IMG/VR virus record: IMGVR_UViG_3300018426_000210 | Span: 1 to 20,256 of that record | Source: a virus | Length of the DNA stretch: 20,256 bases | Direction: 5' to 3' (one strand) | In this document: positions 2,712 to 20,256 of the stretch, in pieces | Layout: every line of letters starts with the position of its first letter | Numbering within the stretch: the first letter of the stretch is position 1 | Position numbers and translations under genes: made by a program | Notes under the pieces: model-generated | Seen by the model: the letters and a program-made list of their open reading frames with translations, nothing else | Told to the model about the DNA's origin: nothing | Database searches by the model: none

Positions 2712-2725
2712 TAGTTGGTTATTAA

Positions 2726-2733: not shown

Positions 2734-2738
2734 ATATA

Positions 2739-2752
2739 GTAATTTAAATTAC
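2739..2752 (+). promoter_or_regulatory. 14-nt perfect palindrome abutting the ribosome binding site
   Basis: GTAATTTAAATTAC is its own reverse complement and is followed at once by GGAGAAAA, the ribosome binding site of the gene at 2765. It could be an operator or an mRNA hairpin next to the Shine-Dalgarno. It is A+T-rich, so chance is possible. A second 14-nt dyad occupies the same position before the gene at 3627. Confidence 0.35.
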
Positions 2753-2764
2753 GGAGAAAATAAA

Positions 2765-3193: not shown

Positions 3194-3209
3194 TCCCAGG
3201 AGATAAGCA

Positions 3210-3542: not shown

Positions 3543-3547
3543 AAAAT

Positions 3548-3555
3548 CATAAATA
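3548..3555 (+). promoter_or_regulatory. Possible late promoter CATAAATA
   Basis: A match to NATAAATA in the 84-base gap before the carbohydrate cassette, ending five bases before the -35 box of the sigma70 promoter. The start codon at 3627 is 71 bases downstream. Confidence 0.45.
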
Positions 3556-3559
3556 ATAG

Positions 3560-3588
3560 TTGACATTTACATAAAACTGTGTTATAAT
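3560..3588 (+). promoter_or_regulatory. Consensus sigma70 promoter with extended -10
   Basis: TTGACA at 3560-3565 and TATAAT at 3583-3588 are spaced by exactly 17 bases, with TG one base upstream of the -10 (TGTTATAAT). It should drive the three-gene cassette at 3627-6665. It has the same architecture as the promoter at 2683-2711; the spacers differ apart from a shared TT at the start and TGTG near the -10. Confidence 0.8.
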
Positions 3589-3603
3589 AACACGTAGAAT
3601 AGA

Positions 3604-3617
3604 ATGATTTACATCAT
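3604..3617 (+). promoter_or_regulatory. 14-nt dyad directly before the ribosome binding site
   Basis: ATGAT, TTAC, ATCAT can form a five-base-pair hairpin with a four-base loop. It is followed directly by GGAGAAAA and the ATG at 3627. This mirrors the palindrome at 2739-2752, and the shared layout is the main reason to report it. Confidence 0.35.
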
Positions 3618-3626
3618 GGAGAAAAT

Positions 3627-4667: not shown

Positions 4668-4668
4668 G

Positions 4669-5916
4669 ATGCACCAATTACAAGAACTATTAGAAACTCA
4701 TATACTGGACCCAAAAAATCCAGAGAAATTATTTGAGTTAGCGAAAGAATACGATAGATTAGGTCAAGGTGCTATGTCAGTATCTTTGTTTCTTAAGACT
4801 GCTGATTTAACAGAAGATAGATTATTACAATATAAATGTCTATGTGGAATTGGTTTATCTTATGAGAGACAAGGAGGAAGAACATTTACTGTTGAAGGTG
4901 CTTTCTTAGATGCAGCTGCTTTAATGCCAGACAGACCAGAAGCTCATTACTTTTTAGCAAGGATGTATTCTGAACAATCACGACATAAACATTCTTTATA
5001 TCATTCAAATGCTGGACTTAAAGCTGAAACAGTATTACCTAAACTTGATTATATTGGTGACCAATATCCTGGAAGAACCTATATGGCTTTTTATAATACT
5101 ATTGCAACATGGTATATTGCTGGTCAACAAACTGGAAAGCATAAACTCTTTGATTTAAAATATAAAGTTTGGACTGATGATTTTGTTTCTGGAAAGGTAG
5201 ATAAGATGTTAAGTCAAATATTCTATCCAGATACTATTCCTTATAAAAAGCATGATGAACCTAGATTTAAATATCCTTTCCCAGGCTTACAAGGCGTAAT
5301 GAGAAATTATTCTAAACACTTTCAAGACCTTTTTGTACTTACTGCTTTTAAAGGAAAGAGAAATGGTACTTATTTAGAGATTGGTTCAGGTGAACCTATT
5401 ACACATAACAATACATACTTACTAGAATCTGGATTTGGTTGGAAAGGTATTTCAATCGATAATGACCCAGGATTGTGTTGTGCTTTTAAAGAAGAAAGAA
5501 ATAATACAGTAATTTGTGCTGATGCTACAGACATAGGTTTTGAAGACTTATTTGCAAAACACTGTATTGACCCAGTTATAGATTATTTACAAGTTGATTG
5601 TGATGATGTTTCATTACAGATATTAGAAAATATTCCTTTCGATAAACATAGATTTGGAGTGATTACATTTGAACATGACGCTTATAGATTAGGAAATGAT
5701 AACAGAGATAGAGCTCGTGAATTACTAAAGGAGCATGGATATGTTCTAGTAGTAAGTGATTTAGGATTCCATCCCGAACATGCCTATGAAGATTGGTATA
5801 TTCACCCAGCCGTTGTAGAGTTTCCTAGAGCAATGGCAACCCCTCAAGATAGAATAAATTTTGTGTGGGATTATTTTATGGAACCTTTAACAGAGGAGAA
5901 TAGTTTAGAGATATGA
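4669..5916 (+). CDS. TPR-like protein with FkbM-type methyltransferase domain
   Basis: 415 aa. I chose the ATG at 4669, not an upstream in-frame TTG at 4651, because AGAGAGGA lies five bases before it and the TTG overlaps the previous gene. Residues ~1-125 are helical, TPR-like (AKEYDRLGQGAMSVSLF, then EAHYFLARMYSEQ). Residues ~205-400 look like an FkbM-family SAM-dependent methyltransferase: GTYLEIGSGEP at 233-243 is motif I, ISIDNDP at 261-267 carries the acidic residue expected to bind SAM ribose, and VIDYLQVDCDDVS at 303-315 with FGVITFEHD at 329-337 follow. FkbM enzymes commonly O-methylate sugars or natural products. Together with its neighbours this suggests capping or modification of a sugar. 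Its stop overlaps the next start (ATGA). Confidence 0.75.
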   Translation: MHQLQELLETHILDPKNPEKLFELAKEYDRLGQGAMSVSLFLKTADLTEDRLLQYKCLCGIGLSYERQGGRTFTVEGAFLDAAALMPDRPEAHYFLARMYSEQSRHKHSLYHSNAGLKAETVLPKLDYIGDQYPGRTYMAFYNTIATWYIAGQQTGKHKLFDLKYKVWTDDFVSGKVDKMLSQIFYPDTIPYKKHDEPRFKYPFPGLQGVMRNYSKHFQDLFVLTAFKGKRNGTYLEIGSGEPITHNNTYLLESGFGWKGISIDNDPGLCCAFKEERNNTVICADATDIGFEDLFAKHCIDPVIDYLQVDCDDVSLQILENIPFDKHRFGVITFEHDAYRLGNDNRDRARELLKEHGYVLVVSDLGFHPEHAYEDWYIHPAVVEFPRAMATPQDRINFVWDYFMEPLTEENSLEI

Positions 5917-6665
5917 TTACAGTGATAGTGACAGGTGGATTTGACCCAATACATTCGGGCCATGTTGCTTATTTAAAAGATGCATCATGTTATGGTACAC
6001 GTTTAGTTGTAGGTGTAAATTCAGATGATTGGTTAAGAAGAAAGAAAGGAAGAGAGTTCATGCCTTGGGAAGAACGCTCTGAAATTATAAAAGGATTAGC
6101 AAGTGTAGATGAAGTAATCGCATTTGATGATTCAGATGGCACAGCAATTGATGCTATCAAACAAGTTAAAGAAAAATATCCTAACGATAAGATTATATTC
6201 GCTAATGGTGGTGATAGAACAAAAGATAACATACCAGAAATGGTGTTCGATGATGTTGTCTTTGAATTTGGTGTAGGTGGTGAAGATAAAAAGAACTCAA
6301 GTAGTTGGATTCTTAAAGAATGGTCTCAACCTACAGTACAAAGAGCATGGGGAACATATACTGTTTTAGATACAAATGGTTCATGGCAAGTTAAAGAACT
6401 CGCATTTGACGTAGGAAATAGTCTTAGTGACCAAAGACACTTCGATAGGTCAGAACACTGGCATGTCGTACAAGGTGAAATTGAAATGAGATTAGAATTT
6501 GCTAATGGCGATAAAGAAATTAAAACATATCGTAAAGGTCAAAGTATAGATATTCCAGTAAATACGTGGCATAAAGCAATCAATGTAGGTACAGAAACTG
6601 CTAAAGTAATTGAAGTTTGGTTAGGAGATAATCTTACAGAAGATGACATCGAACGTCGTGATTAG
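5913..6665 (+). CDS. Cytidylyltransferase fused to a mannose-6-phosphate-isomerase-like cupin
   Basis: 250 aa, overlapping the previous stop by four bases, so translationally coupled. Residues 1-~125 are a nucleotidyltransferase of the TagD/HldE-C type: GGFDPIHSGH with the HSGH nucleotide-binding motif at 14-17, WEERSEII near 52-59 and GGDR at 99-102. Residues ~140-250 are a cupin resembling the C-terminus of type II phosphomannose isomerases: RHFDRSEHWHVVQGEIE at 175-191 with candidate metal ligands, GQSIDIPVNTWHKAINVG at 209-226, and WLGDNLTEDDIER. The likely job is to activate a polyol- or sugar-phosphate with CTP (or ATP) while the cupin binds or isomerises a related sugar. The combination in one chain is unusual. 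Exact substrates cannot be read from the sequence. Confidence 0.75.
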   Translation: MITVIVTGGFDPIHSGHVAYLKDASCYGTRLVVGVNSDDWLRRKKGREFMPWEERSEIIKGLASVDEVIAFDDSDGTAIDAIKQVKEKYPNDKIIFANGGDRTKDNIPEMVFDDVVFEFGVGGEDKKNSSSWILKEWSQPTVQRAWGTYTVLDTNGSWQVKELAFDVGNSLSDQRHFDRSEHWHVVQGEIEMRLEFANGDKEIKTYRKGQSIDIPVNTWHKAINVGTETAKVIEVWLGDNLTEDDIERRD

Positions 6666-6673
6666 TATAAATA
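6666..6673 (+). promoter_or_regulatory. T4-type late promoter TATAAATA
   Basis: An exact TATAAATA directly after the stop codon of the cassette and 47 bases before the ATG at 6721. It probably drives the structural run that starts there in the late phase. Confidence 0.7.
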
Positions 6674-6720
6674 GACTTATATAAAATTAAGTTTAACACG
6701 CTAATAGTCAGGAGACGAAG

Positions 6721-7668
6721 ATGGCGATTAAAGTCGGCGGTACTACTATTATTGATAATAGTAGAAACATATCAAATTTAGAAGGTTTTTCAGGCTCGTT
6801 CGGAGACTTTAGACCTGAACATTCAGATTTAGGCAATATAACAGGAACTGCAACACTAGATTTTTCTGGTGCTCGTGTTAGTAAAGCCACTATGACTGGG
6901 GATACAACATTCTCAGAATCAAACAAAATAATTGGTAGAGATAAAGTACTTTATATCGATACCAGCGCATCTGGTTATACACCAACATTTTCATCTAACG
7001 TAGAATTTCCTAATGGTACACCAACGTGGTCTGGTTATAGACACTGGGTAATATCATTTATATGCTGGGGTAACACAGTTGTAAGAGCAACAGCACTAGG
7101 TTTTACAGATGCTGGTACACCACAGTCAAACGTTCCGCAACAATTCCTATTAGATTCTAATTTTGAAACTTTTAATTTCTTTTCATCCCCAAATTACGCA
7201 GAATGTTGGTGCGCAGTAGATTTCGAAAGAGATGATGTAAACAACAGAATTAAAATAGGAGCTTGGAGTGGTGATTCAAGTGCTATGTCATCAACACAAT
7301 ATACGTACTTAAATTATACTGGGTTAACTGGAATTGATGCTACTACGGGAGTTCAAGTACAATATAATGTACAATCACAGTCATGTGGTGGTTCTGAATG
7401 TAATGCTAACCAATATAGTTTTGGACCAACTCCAGTGAGTGACGGATACAATTCTGGTACTTATTATAACATGTCAGGATACGTAAGATTTGGTTGGTCT
7501 GCGATGGCATTAAATGATGGTGACGACACATACGTATCGGGGAATATGCAATCAGCAAACCCAGATTTAAGAATTAAAATTGTTGCTAATGAAGGAACTT
7601 TCTATTCAACTTGTGAAATGGGAAATATTACTTTGCGAGCTCAAAATGCTGACCAACCTACAAAATAG
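6721..7668 (+). CDS. Virion-like protein, MAIKV-module paralogue 1
   Basis: 315 aa, GGAG six bases before the ATG. The first ~130 residues form a module shared with the genes at 7678 and 8683: MAIKV, then an LYIDTSASGYTPTFSSNV block, TPTWSGYRHWVISF and a VRATALGFT block. The rest is beta-rich, Ser/Thr/Asn/Gly-rich and not shared. A cysteine-containing stretch occurs near residues 220-230 (QSCGGSECNANQ). No signal peptide or membrane helix is seen. The composition, late promoter and position before gene 13, where T4 has genes 12 and wac, suggest a tail-, neck- or whisker-associated fibre or adhesin. No named family is recognised. Confidence 0.7.
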   Translation: MAIKVGGTTIIDNSRNISNLEGFSGSFGDFRPEHSDLGNITGTATLDFSGARVSKATMTGDTTFSESNKIIGRDKVLYIDTSASGYTPTFSSNVEFPNGTPTWSGYRHWVISFICWGNTVVRATALGFTDAGTPQSNVPQQFLLDSNFETFNFFSSPNYAECWCAVDFERDDVNNRIKIGAWSGDSSAMSSTQYTYLNYTGLTGIDATTGVQVQYNVQSQSCGGSECNANQYSFGPTPVSDGYNSGTYYNMSGYVRFGWSAMALNDGDDTYVSGNMQSANPDLRIKIVANEGTFYSTCEMGNITLRAQNADQPTK

Positions 7669-7677
7669 GATATTAAT

Positions 7678-8484
7678 ATGGCAATTAAAGTAGACACAGT
7701 AGAAGTATTATCAAACGGATATGCATTAAGTAATATTGTTAATGCTACTGGAGTATACAGTGATTTATTTCCAGATGGACAAGCTATTGGAACTACTATC
7801 GACATGGATGTACCTCTACAAACAAAGGTACTAGGTGCAGCAACTACATTTACATTTTCAAATATTGCAACAGGAAAACAATGTGTATTACTTTTAGATT
7901 TAAGTTCTGATGGGTATGCACCTACTTTTCCTTCGGGGACAGGGTGGCCAGAAGAAACTGAACCTTCTTGGACAGGAACAAGATATTGGCAAGTTTGTTT
8001 TACTGCATGGGATAACACAACTGTAAGAGCGATTGCAACAGGATATTCGGGTGCTGGAACAAATGCGGCAAATGTTGATTTAGGAGCTAACTTTACCTCA
8101 TATGTAAGTGCTTCAGGTCAATTCGCAGAAGCAGTATGTAGATTTAATATGAACAATGATGGTACTATGAACACTAACAGTAGTGGTAGTACTGGTAGCG
8201 GTGGTTCTTCTGGATTAATAAGTAGGACGTGGTTAGCTTCAGGAAGTGCTTCAGATTATGACATTAAGTGGGACGGAACAGGCGCTACAAGTAAATTAAC
8301 AACGAATCCTGGACTTGGAACCTGGTTAAATTTAGGTACTACGAGAACTTGGGTAATAGAAGATGATGATATAGGTGAAGGAAATGTTCACTCAGTTTCA
8401 GGTACTCTTTCAATTAGAGACGCTACAACCCAATCTGTTATAGACACATGTACTGCGACATTAAGCGTCGATGCACTATTTTAA
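7678..8484 (+). CDS. Virion-like protein, MAIKV-module paralogue 2
   Basis: 268 aa, nine bases after paralogue 1, with TAGGA as ribosome binding site. The N-terminal ~125 residues repeat the module: MAIKV, VLLLDLSSDGYAPTFPSG, PSWTGTRYWQVCF, TTVRAIATGYSGAG. A Ser/Gly linker at ~160-182 (NTNSSGSTGSGGSSG) separates it from a C-terminal beta-rich domain of about 85 residues (RTWLASGS to VIDTCTATLSVDALF). The layout is conserved mount plus linker plus variable tip, as in many phage receptor-binding or decoration proteins (inference). No enzyme motif is seen. Confidence 0.7.
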   Translation: MAIKVDTVEVLSNGYALSNIVNATGVYSDLFPDGQAIGTTIDMDVPLQTKVLGAATTFTFSNIATGKQCVLLLDLSSDGYAPTFPSGTGWPEETEPSWTGTRYWQVCFTAWDNTTVRAIATGYSGAGTNAANVDLGANFTSYVSASGQFAEAVCRFNMNNDGTMNTNSSGSTGSGGSSGLISRTWLASGSASDYDIKWDGTGATSKLTTNPGLGTWLNLGTTRTWVIEDDDIGEGNVHSVSGTLSIRDATTQSVIDTCTATLSVDALF

Positions 8485-8494
8485 GGAATAAAGA

Positions 8495-8683
8495 ATGGAT
8501 ATACCAACACCAAAACACGACGTAATACAACAAGGCGGAGTGGTTATAAGGCAATTCTATACAAAGAATGCTAATAACGAGATTATTGAAGTATTCAAAA
8601 CAATGCCTTATCATGCAAATAACGAACTAGATACTGCAGAGTGTCAGAATTTTATTACAAATGTATTAAGAGGAAGTGAATAA
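8495..8683 (+). CDS. Small hypothetical protein, 62 aa
   Basis: The ATG at 8495 has AAGGA seven bases upstream, and its stop shares one base with the next start (TAATG), so it looks like a real gene in the operon. The protein begins MDIPTPKHDVIQQGG and has no membrane segment. It lies between two paralogues of the MAIKV module and has no resemblance to either. It could be a small accessory or chaperone for the neighbouring fibre-like proteins, but nothing in the sequence shows this. Confidence 0.6.
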   Translation: MDIPTPKHDVIQQGGVVIRQFYTKNANNEIIEVFKTMPYHANNELDTAECQNFITNVLRGSE

Positions 8684-9519
8684 TGGCTGTTAAGATTTCT
8701 AACACAACAGTAATTGCTGATGACTTTCAGTTATTAAACGTTGCCGATACCATTGGTAAATATACTGATTTGCATGCAGTTGCAACTGATACTACGAACA
8801 ACATCAACTTCACTACGACTATGATGACGTGTACTATGACTCAAAATGAAACATTCACCGAGTCGAATGGTGCACCTGGTTTAACTGCGACTTTACTTTT
8901 AGATACAACAAATTCTTCACATACTCCAACATTTTCAAGCAATGTAAATTGGGAAAATAATACTACACCAACTTGGAGTGACTTTCAACACTGGCACATT
9001 ACATTCTTTTACGCAGATAGTAATGATATACGTGCAGCTGCAGTAGGTTACACTGATATAACTCCTTCAGAATCGGTAACTCTTCATGGAACTTCTAGTA
9101 GTCCACAAAGTACGTTTATGACTACTATGCCAGCAAGTGCAGATTGCATTTACGGATATCAGTTTACTAGTGATGGTAACATAAAAAGATATACAAATGG
9201 TTCTGTTTATGGTAATACTGGTTTATGGACTTGGAGTACATCTAAGTGGAATAATATTACACCATCACAAACATATTACATAAGATTCAGTAACCACGAT
9301 ACTTCACAAGGTGTGGGATTAGATACGAGTGCGAGTGCTCCATTAAATACTTGGAATGCATTAACTTCATCTAGATATGCTAGATACGATGTTGCTGGAC
9401 CACGAAATTCGGTAGGTACGCTTATTTCAGTTTTTAAAGTTGAAATTGCTTCTGATTCAAATGGTTCGAACATAGTTGCTACTGGGTACTATGAATGTGA
9501 AATTAACGGAACAGCATAG
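8683..9519 (+). CDS. Virion-like protein, MAIKV-module paralogue 3
   Basis: 278 aa, start overlapping the previous stop by one base. The N-terminal module is again present: MAVKIS, ATLLLDTTNSSHTPTFSSNV, TPTWSDFQHWHITF, IRAAAVGYTD. The C-terminal ~150 residues (from SESVTLHGTSSSPQ) are unlike those of paralogues 1 and 2 and are rich in Thr, Ser and Trp, with SKWNNITPSQTYYIRF and a final GYYECEINGTA. Paralogue 1 is the closer relative in the TPTFSSNV block. The likely role is a virion surface or fibre component; it is not recognised as a named family. Confidence 0.7.
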   Translation: MAVKISNTTVIADDFQLLNVADTIGKYTDLHAVATDTTNNINFTTTMMTCTMTQNETFTESNGAPGLTATLLLDTTNSSHTPTFSSNVNWENNTTPTWSDFQHWHITFFYADSNDIRAAAVGYTDITPSESVTLHGTSSSPQSTFMTTMPASADCIYGYQFTSDGNIKRYTNGSVYGNTGLWTWSTSKWNNITPSQTYYIRFSNHDTSQGVGLDTSASAPLNTWNALTSSRYARYDVAGPRNSVGTLISVFKVEIASDSNGSNIVATGYYECEINGTA

Positions 9520-9527
9520 AGGATAAT

Positions 9528-10295
9528 ATGGGATTACCACATACACAAAATTTAATTATCGGAAGTAAGAATACTGCCGGCAGTGGAGGTGTTGGAGGAA
9601 ATGATTATCCAACATCTGGTGAATCAATTTTAGATAGAGAATCACCTTCAAAAACTGTTATAACAGACTTCTTTGGGTTTAGACAAGACCAACCAGCGAG
9701 TGCAGATTCAGATGTTATTTTAGACTTTTTCTATGATACAATTCTTGGTGGATTGAGTGTTAGAACAACTAACAACGGAAGTGGTGCAACTGGTTCCAAT
9801 ACCACTACAACTTTCCAATATTATACGACTGCAAACGTAGCGGGTAATATTGCAACTAATAGTTCTCGTATTCATTATTCAAATGATTCTGCAGTATCAG
9901 GTGAAACTTATCCAGGTCCCGCTGACCAAATTAAAGTTGTTCATAGTTCTTCTACATTAGCAGATATAGGTGTCACCACGCGCACTTTCACCATGAATAC
10001 ATACCATTATGCTGGTACAGGAGCTCCTGCAACAATTGCTTCTTACACGAATGATACTTGGACTACTTTACATAACATTGGTGGTCAGTCAGGAATCGAT
10101 GTACCAACAGATAGTGTTGGAATAAGAGTAAGAATGAACAACACCTGTAATGCTCAACCAGGTGGAACTGAAACTTCAAGATTAAACACAAGAGAAACAA
10201 TTGAGTGTTGGGTTAAAGCGATTGGTGGTTACGATGATACATTATTGTTCAAGTATGACGTTGAAAACAAAGCAAGGGCGGAAGCAACTTATTAA
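9528..10295 (+). CDS. Beta-rich virion-like protein of unknown function
   Basis: 255 aa, GAGGA about five bases before the ATG. It lacks the MAIKV module of its neighbours. The N-terminus is Gly/Ser-rich (GSKNTAGSGGVGGNDYPTSG, residues 12-31), the middle is Thr/Asn/Ser-rich and the C-terminus ends in a charged segment (FKYDVENKARAEATY). There is no signal peptide, membrane helix or catalytic motif. It is the last gene before the neck gene 13, the place of fibritin (wac) in T4, but it shows no coiled coil and is not a wac homologue as far as I can see. Probably structural by context. Confidence 0.6.
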   Translation: MGLPHTQNLIIGSKNTAGSGGVGGNDYPTSGESILDRESPSKTVITDFFGFRQDQPASADSDVILDFFYDTILGGLSVRTTNNGSGATGSNTTTTFQYYTTANVAGNIATNSSRIHYSNDSAVSGETYPGPADQIKVVHSSSTLADIGVTTRTFTMNTYHYAGTGAPATIASYTNDTWTTLHNIGGQSGIDVPTDSVGIRVRMNNTCNAQPGGTETSRLNTRETIECWVKAIGGYDDTLLFKYDVENKARAEATY

Positions 10296-10310
10296 AGGAT
10301 AAATATTAAT

Positions 10311-11054
10311 ATGTCAATACCAAATACAAGAGAGCTTTTTAAAGATTATATCCTCCGAAAAATTGGTGCGCCTGTTATCGAAGTAAATGTGTCGGACGAA
10401 CAAGTTGAAGACCGTGTTGATGAAGCAGTTTCTTTCTGGAGAGATTATCACTACAATGGAAGTCAGCTCGTTTACTTAAAGCATCAGATTACACAAGAAG
10501 ATAAAGATAATGGATATATTTCTTTACCACAAGGTCTATTAGGTATTTCAGGCATTTTCCCACTTACAACAAACCTTTCTACTGGTTCTGGTATTTTTAA
10601 TGTTCAGTATCAGTTTGTATTAAACAATATACAAGACATTACAGGATATAATGTTCAGAACTATTATATGGCAATGTCACATCTTCAATTCTTACAAGAA
10701 ATCCTTGTAGGAAAACCGATGATTCGATATAACAAACACGTTAATAGATTACATATCGATGTTGATAACGAATTTATGACAGTAGGTGAATATGTTATTA
10801 TTGAAGCATACGATGTTATTGACCCAGCTACTTACTCAGATGTTTGGGGAGACAGATGGTTGCAAAACTATGCGACTGTTTTAGTGAGGGAGCAATGGGG
10901 ACTCAACTTAACTAAATTTACCAACATGCAATTAGTTGGTGGTGTATCATTTAACGGAGAACAGATTTTATCAGAAGCACGAGAAGAAAGACGAAATATG
11001 GAAGAAGAAGCGATAAGAGCTTATCAGCCTCTCACCTATAACTTTATTGGGTAA
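10311..11054 (+). CDS. 13: Neck protein gp13
   Basis: 247 aa, shorter than T4 gp13 (309 aa). The N-terminus NTRELFKDYILRKIGAPVIE followed by NVSDEQVEDRVDEAVSFWRDYH is characteristic of T4-type gp13. The C-terminal part has WGDRWLQNYATVLVREQWG and an acidic-basic helix. In T4 this protein forms the neck ring with gp14 below the portal and closes the packaged head before tail joining. The order 13-14-15 downstream supports the assignment. AAAGGA upstream is the probable ribosome binding site. Confidence 0.88.
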   Translation: MSIPNTRELFKDYILRKIGAPVIEVNVSDEQVEDRVDEAVSFWRDYHYNGSQLVYLKHQITQEDKDNGYISLPQGLLGISGIFPLTTNLSTGSGIFNVQYQFVLNNIQDITGYNVQNYYMAMSHLQFLQEILVGKPMIRYNKHVNRLHIDVDNEFMTVGEYVIIEAYDVIDPATYSDVWGDRWLQNYATVLVREQWGLNLTKFTNMQLVGGVSFNGEQILSEAREERRNMEEEAIRAYQPLTYNFIG

Positions 11055-11061
11055 TGTTTAA

Positions 11062-11751
11062 ATGGCAACAAATGTATTCTTCAGAAATTACGATAACTTC
11101 AACGAGCAACAATTAATTGATGACCTCGTAATTGAAAGTATCAAAATGTATGGTGTCGATGTTATATACATCGCTAGAGACTTTGGTGCTATTGATAGAG
11201 TTTTCAATGAAGATGATTTACCATTATATAATAAAGTCTTTCAATTCGAAGCTTATGTTAAGAGTGTTGATGGATTTGAAGGTGAAGGTGATTTCCTTTC
11301 TAAATTCGGTTTACAAATCAGAGACCAAGTTACATTCTCAGTAGCAAATCGTACGTTCGAACGTTTCGTCACCCGCGAGACAGAAGATATTATTCGACCG
11401 CGTGAAGGTGATTTAATTTATTTCCCTCTCAACGAAAAGATGTTTGAAATCAAATTTACAGAACACGAAAGCGTATTCTATCAAAACGGTTCTTTACAAG
11501 TATTTGATATGAGATGTGAATTAATCGAATACTCTGGTCAAAGAATGGAAACCGGATATGAGAACATTGATGATTACTTCGATAAGATTGACACTACAGG
11601 TACTACAACATTACAAGCACTCGCAAATACAGAAGCTGATGGTAGTGATGCATTAGCGAGGAACTACACTTTTGAAACGGAAGGAGATAATATTCTTGAT
11701 TTCTCAGAGAGTGACCCATTCACTGAAAACATTAATATTAGCGACACATAA
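11062..11751 (+). CDS. 14: Neck protein gp14
   Basis: 229 aa (T4 gp14 is 256 aa). Diagnostic stretches are ATNVFFRNYDNFNEQQLIDDL near the start, the MYGVDVIYIARDF block at ~29-41 and REGDLIYFPLNEKMFEI around 112-128, then a SGQRMETGYENIDDYFD segment. It partners gp13 in the head-tail connector. There is no convincing Shine-Dalgarno before the ATG; the gene starts seven bases after gene 13, so coupled translation is likely. The last ~30 residues are acidic. Confidence 0.87.
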   Translation: MATNVFFRNYDNFNEQQLIDDLVIESIKMYGVDVIYIARDFGAIDRVFNEDDLPLYNKVFQFEAYVKSVDGFEGEGDFLSKFGLQIRDQVTFSVANRTFERFVTRETEDIIRPREGDLIYFPLNEKMFEIKFTEHESVFYQNGSLQVFDMRCELIEYSGQRMETGYENIDDYFDKIDTTGTTTLQALANTEADGSDALARNYTFETEGDNILDFSESDPFTENINISDT

Positions 11752-12566
11752 TGGCAATTGCAAATTATTTTTATAACGCAACTTTAAGAAAATACGTAGC
11801 ACTATTTGGTACGTACTTTAATCAACTTGAAGTGAAGCGTGTAGACAATGGTGGAGTAACACAACAATCAATGATTGTTCCTATCTCTTATGCACCATTC
11901 CAAAAGATACTTGCAAGGTTAGAACAGAATCCAGATTTTAAAGCAAAGTCTGCGATTACTCTTCCTCGTATGTCGTTTGAAATGACAGGAATGAGTTATG
12001 ATGCAGAACGTAAAATATCTCCTATTACTAAGATAAGAAAAAATGTAGTATCTGATGATATAAGTGGAAGAAAGTTTCACTATGCTGGTGTTCCTTATAA
12101 CATGGAATTTCAGCTTTATATTATGACAAAATACCAAGAAGATGCGGTAAAAATAATGGAACAGATTTTACCTTTCTTTAATCCAGATTACACCAGAACT
12201 GCTCGAATTATTACCGGATTAGAACCAATAGACATTCCTTTAATATTAAACGGAGTGACTACAGAGGACATCTATGAGGGTTCTTTTGAAGAGAGACGTT
12301 CTATATTATATACTTTAAGCTTTACAATGAAAGGTTGGTTCTTTGGACCAGAAAAAGAGAAAGGAATTATCAAGTTTATCGATACTCGTTATCATACTGA
12401 TGTTACTTCAAATACAACTCCTGAGGAGTTCCAAACAATTCAACCTGGAATGACTGCTAATAACGAACCAACAACAGACCCTGAATTGACTGTTGATTAT
12501 AGTTTAATTGATTTTGATGACGACTGGGATTATATCAAACAAATATCCGATACTGAACCCAGCTAA
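11751..12566 (+). CDS. 15: Tail completion / sheath terminator protein gp15
   Basis: 271 aa, almost the T4 length (272 aa). The N-terminus AIANYFYNATLRKYVALFGT, then VPISYAPFQKILARL and LPRMSFEMTGMSYD, match T4-type gp15. In T4 a gp15 hexamer caps the top of the tail tube and sheath and binds the neck. The start codon overlaps the gene 14 stop (TAATG) without a clear Shine-Dalgarno, so it should be translated by coupling. Confidence 0.9.
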   Translation: MAIANYFYNATLRKYVALFGTYFNQLEVKRVDNGGVTQQSMIVPISYAPFQKILARLEQNPDFKAKSAITLPRMSFEMTGMSYDAERKISPITKIRKNVVSDDISGRKFHYAGVPYNMEFQLYIMTKYQEDAVKIMEQILPFFNPDYTRTARIITGLEPIDIPLILNGVTTEDIYEGSFEERRSILYTLSFTMKGWFFGPEKEKGIIKFIDTRYHTDVTSNTTPEEFQTIQPGMTANNEPTTDPELTVDYSLIDFDDDWDYIKQISDTEPS

Positions 12567-12585
12567 ATTTTAGGAATACAATATT

Positions 12586-13032
12586 ATGAAAATTGGATTT
12601 ACATGTAGTACATTTGACCTGCTTCATGCTGGCCATGTACAAATGTTAAGAGATGCAAAATCTCAGTGTGATTATTTAATGGTAGGATTACAGATTGACC
12701 CATCAATAGACAGACCAAAAGAAAAGAACCCACCTATACAATCAGTAGTTGAAAGATATACTCAACTCAAAGCTGTAAGATATGTTGATGAAATTATTCC
12801 TTATAAAACAGAACAAGACTTGATAGATATATTAGAGCTATATACAATTCACGTTCGTATTTTAGGTGAAGAGTATAGAGATAAAGAATTTACAGGAAAG
12901 GATATTTGTCGTAAAAGAGATATAGAATTGTTCTTTAATAAACGTGACCATAGGTTCAGTACATCTGGTTTACGAAAAGCTTGTGCTTGGGTAAATAATG
13001 ATGGTGATTGGAAAATGACTAAGGAAGGATAA
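12586..13032 (+). CDS. Glycerol-3-phosphate-cytidylyltransferase-like protein
   Basis: 148 aa, a little longer than TagD (about 130 aa). It is a single nucleotidyltransferase domain: GFTCSTFDLLHAGH at 4-17 with HAGH at 14-17, VVERYTQLKAVRYVDEIIP at 54-72, GEEYRDKEFTG at 94-104 and FSTSGLR at 124-130, which corresponds to the C-terminal substrate-binding ISTT-type motif. It should transfer CMP to a polyol phosphate such as glycerol-3-phosphate. It differs clearly from the cytidylyltransferase at 5913, so it is not a recent duplicate. Its place between genes 15 and 16 interrupts the T4 order. TAGGA precedes the start, and its stop overlaps the gene 16 start (TAATG). Confidence 0.8.
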   Translation: MKIGFTCSTFDLLHAGHVQMLRDAKSQCDYLMVGLQIDPSIDRPKEKNPPIQSVVERYTQLKAVRYVDEIIPYKTEQDLIDILELYTIHVRILGEEYRDKEFTGKDICRKRDIELFFNKRDHRFSTSGLRKACAWVNNDGDWKMTKEG

Positions 13033-13490
13033 TGGCGAAGAAAGATAAAATAGCAGAAACACTTGATATAAGACCTATTGAAGAGGCACAAGAGGAGTTG
13101 CCTGCAAATTCTTTTTCAACTAATGATGATGTAGAGAGCTTACCAGTTGTAAGACAAGAAAATCTACCCGCAGTTGCTGAACAACAAGCTGAAGAGAATT
13201 TAAAAGACATAGAATTAGCGAAAGCAAATATTGAGAATATTATTAATCTCGGTGATGATGCAGTAAAAGAAATGGTTGAGATTGCAAAACAATCAGAATC
13301 ACCAAGAGCATTTGAAGTTGTTTCGACTTTAATGAAAACACTATTAGATGCTAACAAAGATTATGTTGATATGTCAACTAAAAAGAGATATGCGAAAGAA
13401 GAACAAACAACGCAAACTCAAGTGACTAATAATAATCTTATCGTATCAACTGCAGACTTATTGAAAATGATTAAAGACGGAAACGAATAA
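13032..13490 (+). CDS. 16: Small terminase subunit gp16
   Basis: 152 aa (T4 gp16 is 164 aa). The central helical region KDIELAKANIENIINLGDDA, then MVEIAKQSESPRAFEVVSTLMKTLLDANKDYVDM and KKRYAKEE, is typical of T4-type gp16, whose central coiled coil forms the oligomeric ring that regulates gp17 and recognises DNA. The N-terminal 45 residues are acidic and poorly ordered. Both ends overlap their neighbours by one base in TAATG junctions, so 12586, gene 16 and gene 17 form a coupled unit. Confidence 0.88.
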   Translation: MAKKDKIAETLDIRPIEEAQEELPANSFSTNDDVESLPVVRQENLPAVAEQQAEENLKDIELAKANIENIINLGDDAVKEMVEIAKQSESPRAFEVVSTLMKTLLDANKDYVDMSTKKRYAKEEQTTQTQVTNNNLIVSTADLLKMIKDGNE

Positions 13491-15097
13491 TGCCAGTTGG
13501 GTACTTAGGTAACACTTACCTCAAGAGAGCGAATGAGGTACACGAGTTTACACCTGAACAAATTAAGGAGTATATGAAGTGTGCAGAAGACCCAATATAT
13601 TTCGCAGAAAATTATATTAAAATCGTACATGTTGACAAGGGGTTTGTTCCCTTTGAAATGTATGATTATCAAAAAGACATTACACAAAAGATTACAAACA
13701 ATAGACGTGTTGCAGTTTTAACCGCTCGTCAAAGTGGTAAGACAACAACTGCAACCGCAGTTATATTACATTATATTCTATTTAATGAATTTAAGACCGT
13801 TGCGATATTAGCGAACAAGGGTGATGCTGCTCGAGAAGTTCTTTCAAGAGTTCAACTTGCTTATGAAGCATTACCTAAATGGATGCAACAAGGTATCGAA
13901 GAATGGAATAAAGGTAATATTACACTAGAGAATGGTTGTAAAATATATGCAGGTACAACGACATCTTCGGCAATTAGGGGTAAATCAATATCGTTCCTAT
14001 ATCTCGATGAGGTTGCGTTTATTGAAGGATTCGATGAGTTCTTCGCTTCTGTATATCCTACAATCTCTGCTGGTGAAACTACAAAGTTATTAATGACTTC
14101 AACACCAAATGGATTAAACCATTTTTGGAAAACATGTAAAGGTGCTAGAGAAGGTACTAATGGTTATGAATTCGTTGAAGTTATGTGGAATGATGTTCCA
14201 GGGCGTGATGAAAAGTGGAAAAACGAAACACTTGAAGCTTTGGATTTTGACGAAGAAAAGTTTAGACAAGAATACTGTTGTCAATTCTTAGGAAGTTCTG
14301 GTACTCTTGTTGATGGTTCCAAACTTAAAGAATTAGCATACAGTCGTCCTATTGCAGAAAACCAAGGGTTAACTCAATATGAAGCTGTTCAAGAAGGTCA
14401 CGCTTATGTGATGACTGTTGACGTTTCAAGAGGAAAAGGACTAGATTATAGTACTTTTAATGTAATCGACGTAACACAAATGCCTTATAAACAGGTTTGT
14501 GTCTATCGAGATAACATGGTTGCTCCTGTCGATTTTGCATCTATTATATATAGAATAGGACTAATGTACAATGAGAGTTCTGTCCTAATCGAAATCAATG
14601 ATATTGGTGAACAGGTTTCGGACGTACTCTTAATGGACTATGGTTATGAAAATCTTCTTTATACAGAAAATGCGGGACGTTCCGGAAAAAGGATTTCAGC
14701 AGGTTTTGGAAAAAGAGTAGATAATGGAATACGTACAACTAAGAGTGTAAAATCAATTGGTTGTACAATATTAAAAATGTTGATTGAACAGAATCAACTT
14801 ATAGTACAAGACTATAATACAATACAAGAGTTATCACGTTTTAGTAAAAAGGGTTCTTCTTATGAAGCAGAATCTGGTTCCCACGATGATTTGGTTATGA
14901 ACCTGGTCATATTTTCGTGGTTATCAGACCAAACTTTCTTTAAAGACCTCACTGACATAAATACGTTATTAAAGCTTCGACAAAAAACTGAAGAACAAAT
15001 TGAAGAAGAATTATTACCGTTTGGATTTATAGATGATGGAAGTGAACTGCCAGATTCAGACGGATTCGAAGCTGTACGAAACGCATGGGAGATATAA
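13490..15097 (+). CDS. 17: Large terminase subunit gp17 (packaging ATPase-nuclease)
   Basis: 535 aa (T4 gp17 is 610 aa). ATPase domain: Q motif region YDYQKDI at ~58-64, Walker A RQSGKT at 80-85, Walker B FLYLDE with D173 and E174, and coupling motif TSTPNG at 203-208. Nuclease domain: acidic residues D311 in TVDVSRGKGLDYS, D371 in EINDIGEQ, and D466/D467 in SHDDLV, the RNase H-like metal triad. It translocates DNA through the gp20 portal and cuts the concatemer. The reading frame is continuous, with no intron or intein. The start overlaps the gene 16 stop. Confidence 0.96.
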   Translation: MPVGYLGNTYLKRANEVHEFTPEQIKEYMKCAEDPIYFAENYIKIVHVDKGFVPFEMYDYQKDITQKITNNRRVAVLTARQSGKTTTATAVILHYILFNEFKTVAILANKGDAAREVLSRVQLAYEALPKWMQQGIEEWNKGNITLENGCKIYAGTTTSSAIRGKSISFLYLDEVAFIEGFDEFFASVYPTISAGETTKLLMTSTPNGLNHFWKTCKGAREGTNGYEFVEVMWNDVPGRDEKWKNETLEALDFDEEKFRQEYCCQFLGSSGTLVDGSKLKELAYSRPIAENQGLTQYEAVQEGHAYVMTVDVSRGKGLDYSTFNVIDVTQMPYKQVCVYRDNMVAPVDFASIIYRIGLMYNESSVLIEINDIGEQVSDVLLMDYGYENLLYTENAGRSGKRISAGFGKRVDNGIRTTKSVKSIGCTILKMLIEQNQLIVQDYNTIQELSRFSKKGSSYEAESGSHDDLVMNLVIFSWLSDQTFFKDLTDINTLLKLRQKTEEQIEEELLPFGFIDDGSELPDSDGFEAVRNAWEI

Positions 15098-15149
15098 ACC
15101 TATGCTTTTTATAAATAAAACAGTGATAACTATAATTAAGACTAGGTTT
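15096..15149 (+). terminator. Weak possible hairpin with T run after gene 17
   Basis: AAACCTA at 15096-15102 pairs with TAGGTTT at 15143-15149, which continues into a run of T. The loop is about 40 bases and contains the late promoter, so the stem is weak. It could reduce read-through from gene 17 into gene 18, but chance is a real alternative. Confidence 0.2.
15110..15117 (+). promoter_or_regulatory. T4-type late promoter TATAAATA for gene 18
   Basis: An exact TATAAATA in the 81-base gap between genes 17 and 18, 61 bases before the ATG at 15179. A dedicated late promoter fits the high demand for sheath protein. Confidence 0.75.
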
Positions 15150-15178
15150 TTAAATAGATAATATTAAAGGAGAATAAT

Positions 15179-17101
15179 ATGGCTTTTTCCGTAAGTCCTT
15201 CCGTAATAGTTCGCGAAGTGGACGCAAGTGCAGCGGTACCAGCCATCGCAACACCACCTGCCGCTATCGCAGGTGTTTTTAGATGGGGTCCTGTAGGCGA
15301 GGCAGTTCTAGTTTCTTCTGAGAATGATTTAGTAAATAGATTTGGTACACCAACCAATAATAATTACGAAACATTCTTTGTAGCAGCAGACTATCTTTCT
15401 TATGCAAATGCTCTTTACGTGGCTAGAGTAGATAACGGTGCAGTTAAAGCATCTGCATCAGATACATCAAGTGCAAATACACAACTACATACTTTCGGTG
15501 CGTTCGACGCTTTATATCCTGGAGAGTTAGGAAACTCTATTGACGTTGCTTACGTTAAGGGTTCAAGCTTCTCAAACGATGTACTAAGTGTTGGTGATAT
15601 TACTGCTTCTCAATTAACTGGTAACACTCAAATTCAACAAACACTAAACTTTAATGATAGTGATGTTGATTTCGAAGTAGCACCTGCTAATAGAATCACA
15701 TCAGGATTAATTGATGCTGGTGATATTCTTGTAATCGGAAACGATTCAGTAGGATACCAAGAGTTAGAAGTAAGTTCAATCACAGAAACAGCGAGAGACA
15801 CATTAGGAGATGAAACTGCAAATACTTCATTAATCGTAGCATACGATTATAATATTGTATTCGGTTCATCTTGGAGATTAGCAGAATCTGACTTGAACAA
15901 ACTTTCTATTGTAAGAAAGTGGAAATACTCAAGCTGGTTTGGTAAAGCACCTCAAACTGCTAACTATCACATCGCAGTAATCGACAATGATGGTACTATT
16001 TCTGGTGAAGCTGGAACAGCACTGGAACTTTATACCGATGTTTCAACTACGTCAACCGCTAAACTATCAGACGGAACAACAAATTACTACGTAGATGTAA
16101 TCGACAATGGCTCTTCATGGGTTGCAGTCGCAAATACATCGCATTTCGAATCAGGCGCACAAGACAGTTCTTATGAAACTCTTGCAAATGGTACCGATGG
16201 TACATCAGAAACTGCAACAGCATTAGGACCTATCGCGGGTGGTTACGATTTATTCAAGAATGCAAACGAGATTGACGTCTCATTTGTTCTACAAGGTAAG
16301 GGTGACCAAGCCGGAACAGTTGCTAACTACATCATTTCTAACATCACAGATTACAGAAAAGATGCAGTCGCATTCTTATCACCTTCTAAGGCTGATGTCG
16401 TAGACGAAAACAAAACAAACGCAAAACTTAACAACGTCATTGCATATCGTAATAAGTTACAAAACTCTTCATACTGGTTTATGGATAGTGGATACAAATA
16501 CAGATATGACAAGTACAATGATACCTACCGTTATGTTCCACTAAATGGTGATACTGCAGGTCTAGCTTCAAGAGTTGAACCTTTCGAATCACCAGCTGGT
16601 TTCCGTAAGGGTGTAATTAAGAATGTTGTAAAACTTGCTTTCAACCCTAACAAAACACAAAGAGACCAATTATACTCTTCAGATGTTAACCCTGTAATGA
16701 GTCAAGTAGGACAAGGAATTGTACTATTCGGTGATAAGACAGGTCTTGGTTTACCAAGTGCATTTGACAGAATCAATGTAAGAAGACTCTTTATTGCGGT
16801 TGAGAAAGCAATTGCTAATGCAGCACAATCTTTCTTATTCGAACTTAACGATGAATTCTCACAGACTCAGTTCAAAAATATCGTTGAACCTTTCTTAAGA
16901 GAAATTCAAGGTAGACGTGGTATTATCGACTTTAGAGTAATTTCTGATACAACAGTAAATACTCCTGAAATCGTTGATGCTGGTAAGTTTAGAGCAAATA
17001 TCTTTATTAAACCTGCTAGAAGCATTAATGTTATTGAATTAACATTTGTTGCAACAAGAAGTGGTGTTGAATTTGAAGAAATTGTTGGCTCAATTGGTTA
17101 A
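15179..17101 (+). CDS. 18: Tail sheath protein gp18
   Basis: 640 aa (T4 gp18 is 659 aa), AAAGGAG before the ATG. The N-terminus SPSVIVREVDASAAVPAIAT with FRWGPVGEAVLV is the canonical sheath start. The C-terminal domain has GLPSAFDRINVRRLFIAVEK, then FLFELNDEFSQTQF, REIQGRRGIIDFRVISDTT and the final beta strand VIELTFVATRSGVEFEEIVG, the conserved tail-sheath core that forms the interlocking mesh. The middle (about residues 120-400) is the surface-exposed variable part. It builds the contractile sheath around the gp19 tube. Confidence 0.96.
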   Translation: MAFSVSPSVIVREVDASAAVPAIATPPAAIAGVFRWGPVGEAVLVSSENDLVNRFGTPTNNNYETFFVAADYLSYANALYVARVDNGAVKASASDTSSANTQLHTFGAFDALYPGELGNSIDVAYVKGSSFSNDVLSVGDITASQLTGNTQIQQTLNFNDSDVDFEVAPANRITSGLIDAGDILVIGNDSVGYQELEVSSITETARDTLGDETANTSLIVAYDYNIVFGSSWRLAESDLNKLSIVRKWKYSSWFGKAPQTANYHIAVIDNDGTISGEAGTALELYTDVSTTSTAKLSDGTTNYYVDVIDNGSSWVAVANTSHFESGAQDSSYETLANGTDGTSETATALGPIAGGYDLFKNANEIDVSFVLQGKGDQAGTVANYIISNITDYRKDAVAFLSPSKADVVDENKTNAKLNNVIAYRNKLQNSSYWFMDSGYKYRYDKYNDTYRYVPLNGDTAGLASRVEPFESPAGFRKGVIKNVVKLAFNPNKTQRDQLYSSDVNPVMSQVGQGIVLFGDKTGLGLPSAFDRINVRRLFIAVEKAIANAAQSFLFELNDEFSQTQFKNIVEPFLREIQGRRGIIDFRVISDTTVNTPEIVDAGKFRANIFIKPARSINVIELTFVATRSGVEFEEIVGSIG

Positions 17102-17107
17102 TAAATA
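17100..17107 (+). promoter_or_regulatory. Possible late promoter AATAAATA for gene 19
   Basis: A match to NATAAATA that overlaps the gene 18 stop codon and lies 25 bases before the ATG at 17133. Plausible because the tube protein is also needed in many copies. Confidence 0.45.
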
Positions 17108-17132
17108 ATTAGTAAAATAGGAGAACTAACAA

Positions 17133-17666
17133 ATGGCATTTAATATTAATGAGTTCAAATCCCAGCTAGTTGGTGGTGGTGCTCGACCTACGTTATTCCA
17201 ATGTCAAATCTTAAACCCTGTTGCTCCTGAAGCCGACTTTAAAGTTCCTTTCATGGTAAGAGCTGCGGGTATACCCGGCTCTTCCTTAGGTTCTTTCACA
17301 GCACCATACTTTGGTCGTCAGGTCAAGTATGCAGGTGATAGGGTATTTGAAGATTGGACAGTGACTGTTATTAACGATGAAGATTTCATTGTTAGAAACG
17401 GTTTGGAAGCATGGTCAAATGCTATCAATACACATGATGGTAATTTACGCTCACTTCCATCTGATTACAAATCAAATGGTTTAATTACACAATATAGTAA
17501 AGACGGAGACGCAATTAGAACTTATGTGTTCGAAGGTATGTACCCAGTGACTATTGACCAAATCCAAATGGATTGGGGTACAACCGATACAATTGAAGAA
17601 TTCTCAGTGACCTTCCAATATGACTTCTGGAGAGTCGAAGGTTCAACTGGAATTCCAACTACATAA
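17133..17666 (+). CDS. 19: Tail tube protein gp19
   Basis: 177 aa (T4 gp19 is 163 aa), TAGGAG before the ATG. Family features are FNINEFKSQLVGGGARPTLF at the start, PFMVRAAGIPGSSLGSF, YFGRQVKYAGDRVFEDWTVTV in the middle and VTFQYDFWRVEG near the end. It forms stacked hexameric rings of the inner tube through which DNA passes. It sits between sheath and portal, as in T4. Confidence 0.95.
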   Translation: MAFNINEFKSQLVGGGARPTLFQCQILNPVAPEADFKVPFMVRAAGIPGSSLGSFTAPYFGRQVKYAGDRVFEDWTVTVINDEDFIVRNGLEAWSNAINTHDGNLRSLPSDYKSNGLITQYSKDGDAIRTYVFEGMYPVTIDQIQMDWGTTDTIEEFSVTFQYDFWRVEGSTGIPTT

Positions 17667-17683
17667 TAATAGGAATTTAAATA

Positions 17684-19216
17684 ATGAAGATTTTTGGCTT
17701 CGAAATTAAGAGGCCTGAAGATGAGATAAAGAATGCTCCTATCTCATTTACAGAACCTCAAAATGATGATGGTGCGATTACCGTATCAGGTAACTCGCTA
17801 GGGGGCTTTTATAGTACTCTATTAGATATGGAAGGTTCAGCTAAGTCTGAATCCGAACTTATCACAAAGTATAGGAACATGGCCCTTCAGCCTGAGATTG
17901 CTCAGGCAGTTGATGATATAGTGAATGAAGCTATCTCGATTGAAATGGACGAAAGTGTCGTTAGCATAAGTTTAGGTGAAACTGATTTACCTGATAAAGT
18001 TAAAGACAAGATTGTAGAAGAATTTGATAACGTCGTATCTATGTTTGATATGTCAAACCAAGGATACGATATGTTCTATAAGTTTTATATCGACGGTCGA
18101 TTGAATTATCATATTATAATCGACCCCGATAACCTTAAAAGAGGTATTATAGAACTACGTTATTGTGACCCTCGAAAACTAAAACTAATTCGAGAGTTGG
18201 ACAAGAAAAGTAAAGACAAGCACTCAGGTGCTCCAGTCAAAAAGATTAAGAATGAATACTATATGTATTCTGAAAATGGATTTGGAGCTACTAGTGCAAG
18301 CGGTTCAACTGTTGGTTTTAAAATTGCGAAGGACTCTATTGCTAGAGTAACTTCAGGATTGATGAATGAGAATAATAGTTTAGTATTATCTCACTTACAT
18401 CCAGCAATTAAACCTTTAAATCAGTTGAGAATGCTAGAGGATGCTACAGTCATTTATACATTGACTAGAGCTCCTGAAAGAAGAATTTTTTATATTGATG
18501 TAGGTAATTTACCTAAGAATAAGGCGGAACAATATCTTAGAGATATGATGACTCGCCATAAGAATAAACTTCAATATAATTCGTCAACAGGTGAGATTAC
18601 AGATTCTCGTAAAATGTTGACAATGACTGAGGACTTTTGGTTCCCACGTCGAGGCGGTGAGCGTACCACAGAGGTTGATACATTAGCAGGTGGTAGTGCT
18701 CAAGGTTTAAGCAACGACGAAAACATGACGTATTTTCAACGTAAATTATATAAAGCGTTGAAAGTACCTTTAACGCGTTTAGAGCCTGAAACAATGGCGA
18801 ACTTTGGTAGAACATCTGAAATTACCAGAGACGAGTTAAAGTTTGGAAAGTTTATTAAACGTATCAGATCACGTTTTTCTTGGATATTTACTATTATGCT
18901 AGAAAAACAATTGGTACTTAAAGGTATTTTAACACCTGAAGAGTTCGATGAAATTAGAAATGATATTCGTTATGATTTTGCTAGAGATAGTTATTATGAC
19001 GAATTGAAAAATGCTGAAATTTTAAGAGAAAGATTAAATACTCTTAGAGATGTTGAAGAACAAATTGGAAAATATTATTCAAGAGAATGGGTAATAAGAA
19101 ATGTTCTTCAAATGTCAGAAGAAGAATTTAATGAAATGACGGATCAGATGGAAGCAGAAAAAGCGGCGGCACCTGATGAAGGCGACGAAGATATGGACTC
19201 AGGTAATCCATTTTAA
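17684..19216 (+). CDS. 20: Portal protein gp20
   Basis: 510 aa (T4 gp20 is 524 aa), AGGA about nine bases before the ATG. Recognisable segments are SELITKYRNMALQPEIAQAVDDIVNEAI, YDMFYKFYIDGRLNYHIIID, LRYCDPRKLKLIRE, then PAIKPLNQLRMLEDATVIYTLTRAPERRIFYIDVGNLPK and FWFPRRGGERTTEVDTLAGG, and YKALKVPLTRLEPE. The dodecameric portal starts head assembly, is the channel for gp17-driven packaging and later binds the neck. The last ~25 residues are acidic. The 3' part, from about 18,867, contains GATC sites that are absent from the rest of the window upstream, suggesting a recombination junction within the gene. Confidence 0.96.
   Translation: MKIFGFEIKRPEDEIKNAPISFTEPQNDDGAITVSGNSLGGFYSTLLDMEGSAKSESELITKYRNMALQPEIAQAVDDIVNEAISIEMDESVVSISLGETDLPDKVKDKIVEEFDNVVSMFDMSNQGYDMFYKFYIDGRLNYHIIIDPDNLKRGIIELRYCDPRKLKLIRELDKKSKDKHSGAPVKKIKNEYYMYSENGFGATSASGSTVGFKIAKDSIARVTSGLMNENNSLVLSHLHPAIKPLNQLRMLEDATVIYTLTRAPERRIFYIDVGNLPKNKAEQYLRDMMTRHKNKLQYNSSTGEITDSRKMLTMTEDFWFPRRGGERTTEVDTLAGGSAQGLSNDENMTYFQRKLYKALKVPLTRLEPETMANFGRTSEITRDELKFGKFIKRIRSRFSWIFTIMLEKQLVLKGILTPEEFDEIRNDIRYDFARDSYYDELKNAEILRERLNTLRDVEEQIGKYYSREWVIRNVLQMSEEEFNEMTDQMEAEKAAAPDEGDEDMDSGNPF
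18170..18866. other. Compositional junction: end of GATC-free tract
   Basis: The last Asp-Pro pair spelled GAC-CC before the change is at 18167-18172, and the first GATC in the window is at 18867-18870. Further GATC sites follow at 19142, 19327, 19338, 19389, 19423, 19447, 19573, 19648 and 19681. The interval between the two landmarks is where the change must lie. It is read by eye, not computed. Confidence 0.6.
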
Positions 19217-19224
19217 TATAAATA
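19217..19224 (+). promoter_or_regulatory. T4-type late promoter TATAAATA
   Basis: An exact TATAAATA directly after the gene 20 stop and 33 bases before the ATG at 19258. It probably starts the transcript for the head-assembly genes expected further right. Confidence 0.7.
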
Positions 19225-19257
19225 AAAAATAATATCAAATAAAATAGGGACTTAACA

Positions 19258-20256
19258 ATGAAAAACTTTAAAGATATTCTCTCAGAAATCGCCCAGCCGA
19301 AAAGTGGCGACGAGAAGAAATTTAAAGATCTACATAAGATCGAATTGATTAAACACCCAGTCGCTCCTGATAGTCAATTTACAGGTGAGATCGAAGGTGT
19401 AGAGCGTAAACCAAGACCAGCCGATCAAGAGGGCGATACTAATTACGATCCTCATTTAGAAAAACAAGACAAGCCATTTAAAATGCCAAGAGATATTGGC
19501 GGCGGTGCATTAAGAAAAGAAAATACTCAAGTTTCTTTTAAAGATTTAATGAACAAAATCACTTCAGAAGAAGATCTTCTTGAAAGTCCCCAAGAAGAAA
19601 TTCCAATGATGATGAAGCAACTTCATTATATCTGTTATGCAGCAGAAGATCTTATGGAATTTTTAGCAACAGACGATTTAGATCCAGAAGAATGGTGGCA
19701 AAATAAATTAGCACAAGTATTCGGTAATGTTAAATCATTACATGCTTATGCAGTAGGTTCAAAGAAAGCAGCAGAAGCTGAAAAAGATATTGATGTCGAT
19801 GACGATGATATGGAAGAAACATACGAGTCTGTTGACGAAGAAATTGCAAGCCTTCTTCATGAAGAAAAATGTGAATGTTGCGGAAATGAAATTACTAAAG
19901 AAGGTTGTGGATGTGATGAAGATTGTCCACATTGTGGCGGCAAAGGAAAAGTAGCCGAAGCTTATGATAGAGCTGCTGTTAGTGCAGCAGTAAGAAAAGC
20001 TGCCGAAAAAGAAAATATGAAATCAAAGCGTGATGTAGAGCGTTTCTTTGATTATGATGGTGGCGATATTATCTTTAGAATGGTTAAAGATGAAGACGAA
20101 GCAAATGTTCTAATGAGTCAACTCAAATCTCAATATAAGCAAAAGTTTAAAGAAGAAGTAGAAAACGTTGAAGAAGCAGCTTTTAAACCAGTGGTAGTAA
20201 AGCCTGGGTTTATGCAATTAAATAATAAAAAGAGAGTAAGAGTTACTCCACAAGAT
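19258..20256 (+). CDS. Acidic head-region protein with Cys-rich motif (3' truncated)
   Basis: The frame is open from the ATG at 19258 to the window edge, 333 codons without a stop; an AGGGA-type site lies eight bases upstream. Residues 1-100 are charged and probably disordered. Residues ~115-165 are a helical block (MMMKQLHYICYAAEDLMEFL, then DPEEWWQNKLAQVFGNVKSLHAY) similar to one I recall from head-assembly proteins of marine T4-like phages. Residues 205-226 hold seven cysteines: C205, C207, C208, C217, C219, C223 and C226 with a CPHCGGKGK end, resembling a zinc ribbon or DnaJ-like knuckle. T4 has the prohead core and protease genes 67, 68, 21 and 22 here, so a core/scaffold role is plausible but unproven. 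Gly codon GGC is commoner than in the genes to the left. Confidence 0.8.
   Translation, partial: MKNFKDILSEIAQPKSGDEKKFKDLHKIELIKHPVAPDSQFTGEIEGVERKPRPADQEGDTNYDPHLEKQDKPFKMPRDIGGGALRKENTQVSFKDLMNKITSEEDLLESPQEEIPMMMKQLHYICYAAEDLMEFLATDDLDPEEWWQNKLAQVFGNVKSLHAYAVGSKKAAEAEKDIDVDDDDMEETYESVDEEIASLLHEEKCECCGNEITKEGCGCDEDCPHCGGKGKVAEAYDRAAVSAAVRKAAEKENMKSKRDVERFFDYDGGDIIFRMVKDEDEANVLMSQLKSQYKQKFKEEVENVEEAAFKPVVVKPGFMQLNNKKRVRVTPQD

Follow-up and report, generated by a model that had tools for sequence, protein, structure and literature searches.

Does the viral contig recorded in IMG/VR as IMGVR_UViG_3300018426_000210 carry the DNA of one phage, or of two? We analysed a stretch of 20,256 nucleotides (positions 1 to 20,256 of the record), hereafter called the window, in which GATC sites are very unevenly spread. 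Not a single site is present in positions 1-18866, where 54.6 were expected from the trinucleotide content (Poisson probability about 2×10−24), and ten are then found in the last 1390 bases, at positions 18867, 19142, 19327, 19338, 19389, 19423, 19447, 19573, 19648 and 19681. A first-pass annotation had reported this switch from GATC-free to GATC-rich DNA, and its limits turned out to be exact to the base (0 sites in 1-18866, 10 in 18867-19681). In a change-point test, the log-likelihood gain was 26.8, a value equalled in none of 1000 uniform placements; the computed GATC count is therefore not uniform over the window.

Codon usage was examined on both sides. The reversal announced for Asp codons placed before a C is complete, as GAC is used in 34 of 34 cases before position 18446 and GAT in 7 of 7 after 18651 (Fisher test, 4×10−8), and the announced rise of the Gly codon GGC, from 30/492 on the left to 9/29 on the right, is significant as well (p = 10−4). 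The claim that GTAC disappears holds as far as the last site is concerned (18914), albeit as a weak signal: 3.7 sites were expected on the right at the rate of the right-hand parent described below, giving P(0) = 0.024, and the whole long contig of that parent (137,426 bases) has 384 GTAC sites for 453 expected. In the left part of the window, other motifs gave observed/expected counts of 59/62 for GANTC, 77/74 for GTAC, 67/60 for TCGA, 42/63 for CATG and 29/40 for CTAG. Of the motifs counted, GATC alone is thus lost, CATG and CTAG being mildly low. When an 18.8-kb contig of the left-hand lineage was included together with the left part of the window, the other four-base palindromes were likewise near or mildly below expectation.

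The window is T4-like, with neck, terminase, sheath, tube and portal genes of the T4 type in their usual order (features are listed in Table 1). Pelagibacter phage HTVC008M has the same gene order, with other genes interspersed. Two cytidylyltransferase-like genes (5913-6665 and 12586-13032) lie among the structural genes, the first being fused to a cupin domain of the mannose-6-phosphate isomerase type. For the reading frame that follows the portal gene, neither PHROGs nor Pfam gave a match at E 0.001.

Table 1. Coordinates of the parts, genes and junction features of the window
Feature	Position	Strand	Basis
GATC-free part of L type, from the tail fibre into the 5′ half of the portal gene	1..18445	+	18 mismatches with the long L contig (107,852 bases)
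Portal protein gene (T4 gene 20), 510 aa, open across the junction	17684..19216	+	Portal_T4 PF07230, E 8e-157; phrog_213 portal, E 2e-184
Stretch identical in both parents, with the join inside	18446..18651	+	206 bases; no differing site between L005 and L001
Older exchange patch common to the L and R lineages	18446..18811	+	366 bases with 2 L-R differences
GATC-bearing part of R type, with the 3′ part of the portal gene and the reading frame that follows	18652..20256	+	diagnostic sites, identity with R contigs
Cluster of ten GATC sites	18867..19684	+	computed site map
Reading frame downstream of gene 20, still open where the window ends	19258..20256	+	ORF

Relatives were collected by comparing the portal protein with viral contigs, and the best 80 of the 517 found were used. 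They include two sister types, called L and R. The L type is a GATC-free lineage. A long contig of this type, 107,852 bases, was found by a separate search with a protein encoded upstream, and holds 1 GATC for 353 expected. This T4-like contig (IMGVR_UViG_3300023105_000011; G026, loci L176-L181) has the strongest GATC loss that we met, judged by the expected count. Three other L contigs, L005, L006 and L007, have 1, 1 and 0 sites, the one of L005 and L006 being 4.6 kb past the portal start. The R type is represented by a contig of 137,426 bases with 434 GATC for 533 expected, at 7 to 24 per 5 kb. About 71 kb of the long L contig aligns with the long R contig, at a mean identity of 78%. The gene content of the two contigs is uninformative, as many of the one-sided genes fall outside the region covered by the other contig.

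The window follows one type and then the other. Compared with L005, L006 and L007, its identity per 250 bases is 99-100% up to about 18680, and 76-85% from 18934. Compared with the R contigs L001, L003, L004 and L020, whose GATC content is normal, it is 70-96% over 10434-18433 where aligned, and 98-100% afterwards. At the diagnostic sites that distinguish L005 from L001, the window has the L base at 1239 of 1243 positions between 10291 and 18445; between 18652 and 19960, it has the R base at 207 of 209, the L base at one and neither at one. Over the right part (∼1605 bases), we counted 3 differences from L001, 2 from L004, 2 from L082 and 4 from L020, and none from L003 over 710 bases. Each of the window's ten GATC sites is present in L001, and at these places L005 has GACC (5), GACT (2), GGTC, AATA and GATT. 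The bases at 12095 and 19431 are private to the window among the L and R contigs compared. Two positions within the L part, 12951 and 16552, show the R base in the window and the L base in three L contigs, owing either to chance substitution or to very small conversions. L-R identity is raised a second time (92-96%) in the sheath gene, at 16430-17180, which is possibly another exchange patch.

Trees of the portal gene were built with 75 of the 80 loci (L020 and L030, which have partial portal genes, and L035, L042 and L080 were left out). With the 5′ part of the gene (17684-18297), the window groups with L with a support of 100, and holding it with R was rejected (AU test, p = 0.006, for groups that were named after the data had been seen). 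With the 3′ part (18812-19190), it groups with R, with a support of 96.9. The separate trees that the first-pass annotation had proposed are thus incongruent. Its breakpoint in the portal gene is borne out and can be narrowed: the last base specific to L is at 18445, and the first one specific to R at 18652. The donor that it had postulated, a phage not under GATC selection, corresponds to a lineage with near-normal GATC. We conclude that two closely related phages, joined in gene 20, make up the window.

What is shared by the two types at the place of the join? No L-R difference exists over the 206 bases in between, apart from one private base of the R contig L020, at 18529. The long L and R contigs have 415 exact runs in common that reach 20 bases. 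The run at the join is the longest of them, and one of only 4 with 127 bases or more. Its share of the room available for a crossover depends on the length of identity needed. With 20 identical bases, it offers 187 of 5853 places, with 30 bases 177 of 3278, with 50 bases 157 of 1478, and with 127 bases 80 of 219. This amounts to 3-11% at 20-50 identical bases and 37% at 127 for the long contigs; within positions 10291-19990 of the window, the share is 14-37% at 20-50 bases and 100% at 127.

The identical run is the beginning of a longer patch in which L and R are nearly the same. At third codon positions, L-R identity is 99.2% in the patch (122 sites) versus 60.5% elsewhere in the portal gene (389 sites), and L or R compared with four other lineages is only 62-68% identical at the third positions of the patch. 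This contrast goes beyond conservation, and records a past exchange between the ancestors of L and R. The patch is carried by contigs that are L on both sides as well as by contigs that are R on both sides, therefore it is no product of the window contig. Neither parent has a GATC in it. The direction of the exchange cannot be read from this absence, because 366 site-free bases are ordinary at the mean spacing of R (∼317 bases).

We next consider how the two parts came to be joined. In our opinion, the window most likely arose as a chimera, a metagenome contig assembled from two T4-like sister phages, a reading to which we give a probability of roughly 55%. The older exchange would have made 206 bases of the portal gene identical in L and R, and an assembler whose words or reads are below this length could have been led from the left part of L onto the right part of R. 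The scenario supposes that both phages were present in the sample of the window, and that the join was made by the assembler, not by a phage. Both parents were indeed found unjoined in other assemblies, and the join lies inside a long exact repeat. Ten other contigs span the junction, 6 of them R on both sides, 4 L on both sides, and none mixed. Nine of these came from a scan for junction patterns, and the tenth (L-L), missed there, was found separately; the scan is thus incomplete, and records very near to the window may also be absent from the count. The six R-R contigs are perhaps not independent, L002 being a duplicate of L001 (99.99% identical). A further L contig, 2,871 bases long, terminates at 18483, inside the shared stretch.

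The change-point test was also applied to relatives. Out of 84 sequences, it could be run on the 75 that have four or more sites and in which a split was admissible; some of these overlap or are near-copies. A clear GATC step was found in the window alone among the 75, with its gain of 26.8 followed by a next best of 6.2. Five other sequences had p < 0.05 (lowest 0.018, for the gain of 6.2), which is about the chance level for 75 tests. Our leaning towards an assembly chimera comes from these three observations: no mixed contig among ten, a join in the longest shared run, and no comparable step in 74 other sequences. The prior for a chimera is modest, since the chimera rate is under 5%. Several points speak against a chimera. 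The contig names place the two lineages together in no sample (5 samples have L-type contigs, 7 have R-type ones, and the overlap is 0), the portal frame is open, and the join is exact, as homologous recombination would leave it. Moreover, L and R have exchanged DNA earlier at the same gene, and the window has bases of its own. The two unmatched bases (12095 and 19431), together with the R bases at 12951 and 16552, argue that the window is a strain of its own.

The first-pass annotation had preferred a recent homologous recombination, with a chimeric contig as its main alternative. The mosaic in gene 20 stands, a natural exchange is one possible cause of it, and the alternative fits somewhat better, for the place of the join and the lack of mixed spanning contigs. 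A real and very recent recombinant nevertheless keeps a substantial chance, somewhat short of even. An R-type phage would then have supplied an L-type phage with the genes from the 3′ part of gene 20 onwards, by a crossover in the 206-base stretch. The incongruent portal trees are what such an event would leave behind (supports of 100 with L and 96.9 with R, AU p = 0.006), as is the intact portal reading frame. The two lineages have previously exchanged DNA at this very site, their samples do not overlap by contig name, and the window differs by few bases from the contigs compared. That none of the other ten spanning contigs is mixed speaks against it, although a very young recombinant could sit in one sample. 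So does the position of the join in the longest L-R shared run, and so does the rarity of the step, matched in none of the 74 other sequences even though the GATC class switches between low and high along the tree. Such a genome would also bring GATC into a lineage that had lost these sites.

In a variant that we regard as rather doubtful, the window would be a newborn true recombinant, in which a lineage purged of GATC acquired GATC-rich head genes from its sister. GATC content would then hinder gene flow from one sister phage to the other, recombinants being normally removed by a host nuclease. Such a barrier would explain the lack of a similar step in the other relatives tested.

Two explanations remain. 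In a single lineage, selection against GATC may have been relaxed in the head genes, and codon choice does shift together with GATC. This very improbable reading is already refuted, as 207 of 209 diagnostic sites assign the right part to another lineage, and the L copy of the same genes is nearly GATC-free (one site each in L005 and L006, one in total in the 107.9-kb contig). Finally, a chance clustering of GATC has a negligible probability and is likewise refuted, with 0 sites for 54.6 expected, followed by 10 in 1390 bases.

Whatever the origin of the join, the GATC loss of the L lineage is real. With 1 site for 353 expected in 107,852 bases, GATC is under-represented in the way known for restriction-site avoidance; this loss is extreme, specific to the lineage, and of a known kind. 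On the portal tree, built with the same 75 loci, the GATC class changed at least 5 times among the 71 rows that were classed (39 low and 32 high), the 4 rows between the two classes not being counted. Among cultured relatives, based on 15-49 kb of each phage, the observed/expected ratio is low in Pelagibacter phage HTVC008M (locus L109, 0.22), Mosig (L110, 0.09) and Methylophilales phage Melnitz (L112, 0.12), and higher in cyanophage P-TIM68 (0.80), Sinorhizobium phage phiM19 (0.98) and Caulobacter phage Cr30 (0.89). Other motifs are low in some of them: in 40 kb of HTVC008M, GANTC is at 12/87 and TCGA at 2/25 (observed/expected), and 16 kb of Melnitz has no GGWCC (0/11). The pattern of GATC classes across relatives fits selection by some hosts.

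Inferring from established knowledge, we take cleavage at GATC by a host enzyme as the likeliest cause of the loss in L. In PMC6286503, GATC is reported as under-represented in 46 of 46 phages whose hosts encode the matching nuclease; PMC5014478 describes phiX174 as devoid of GATC, with mismatch repair as one proposed cause. We asked whether R tolerates GATC thanks to a protection encoded by the phage. The methyltransferase family MethyltransfD12 (PF02086) was found in 0 of 26 and 0 of 4 records, both long parents included. Phage Dam (PF05869), N6_N4_Mtase (PF01555) and QueC (PF06508) were each found in 0 of 16 records, a set with the long R contig and without the 107.9-kb L contig. The idea of such a protection was rejected, though missing genes weigh little, because the records are fragments. 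Among genome contigs, only three relatives were found, in one binned Rhodobacteraceae assembly, at 71-77% identity and with normal GATC (0.78-0.94); this match identifies the host of neither L nor R. Among the paper titles listed, we recognised no report of GATC loss in these phages, which is no proof of absence.

The lineage contrast and the older exchange patch are real under either reading of the join, and both are of known kinds. If the window is an assembly artefact, it means that a restriction-site signature specific to a lineage can reveal chimeras of sister phages, and that claims of mosaicism made from such contigs deserve to be discounted. The contrast between L and R (1 GATC in 108 kb versus 434 in 137 kb) allows tests of the host factor behind the GATC loss in this group of T4-like phages.

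How does this locus compare with known systems? T4-like phages are mosaic through homologous recombination in conserved head genes. The window resembles them by its breakpoint in a conserved structural gene with the frame kept, with the difference that its junction is seen in the window only. In virome assemblies, chimeric contigs arise from similar viruses that co-exist, according to PMC5610896; here too, two genomes are joined at a highly similar region, and what sets this case apart is the restriction-site signature that exposed the join. As in the restriction-site avoidance of phages described in PMC6286503 and PMC5014478, one palindrome is lost and synonymous codons are used instead. What differs is the scale of the contrast, with 1 site in 107.9 kb for L, and 434 in 137.4 kb for a sister that is about 78% identical over 71 kb. 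A published parallel is found in pelagiphages, which are separated by clade through GANTC depletion (PMC9516812): in both cases, the depletion of a site divides related marine phages by clade. The motif is GATC here, however, and GANTC is not depleted in L (59 for 62 expected).
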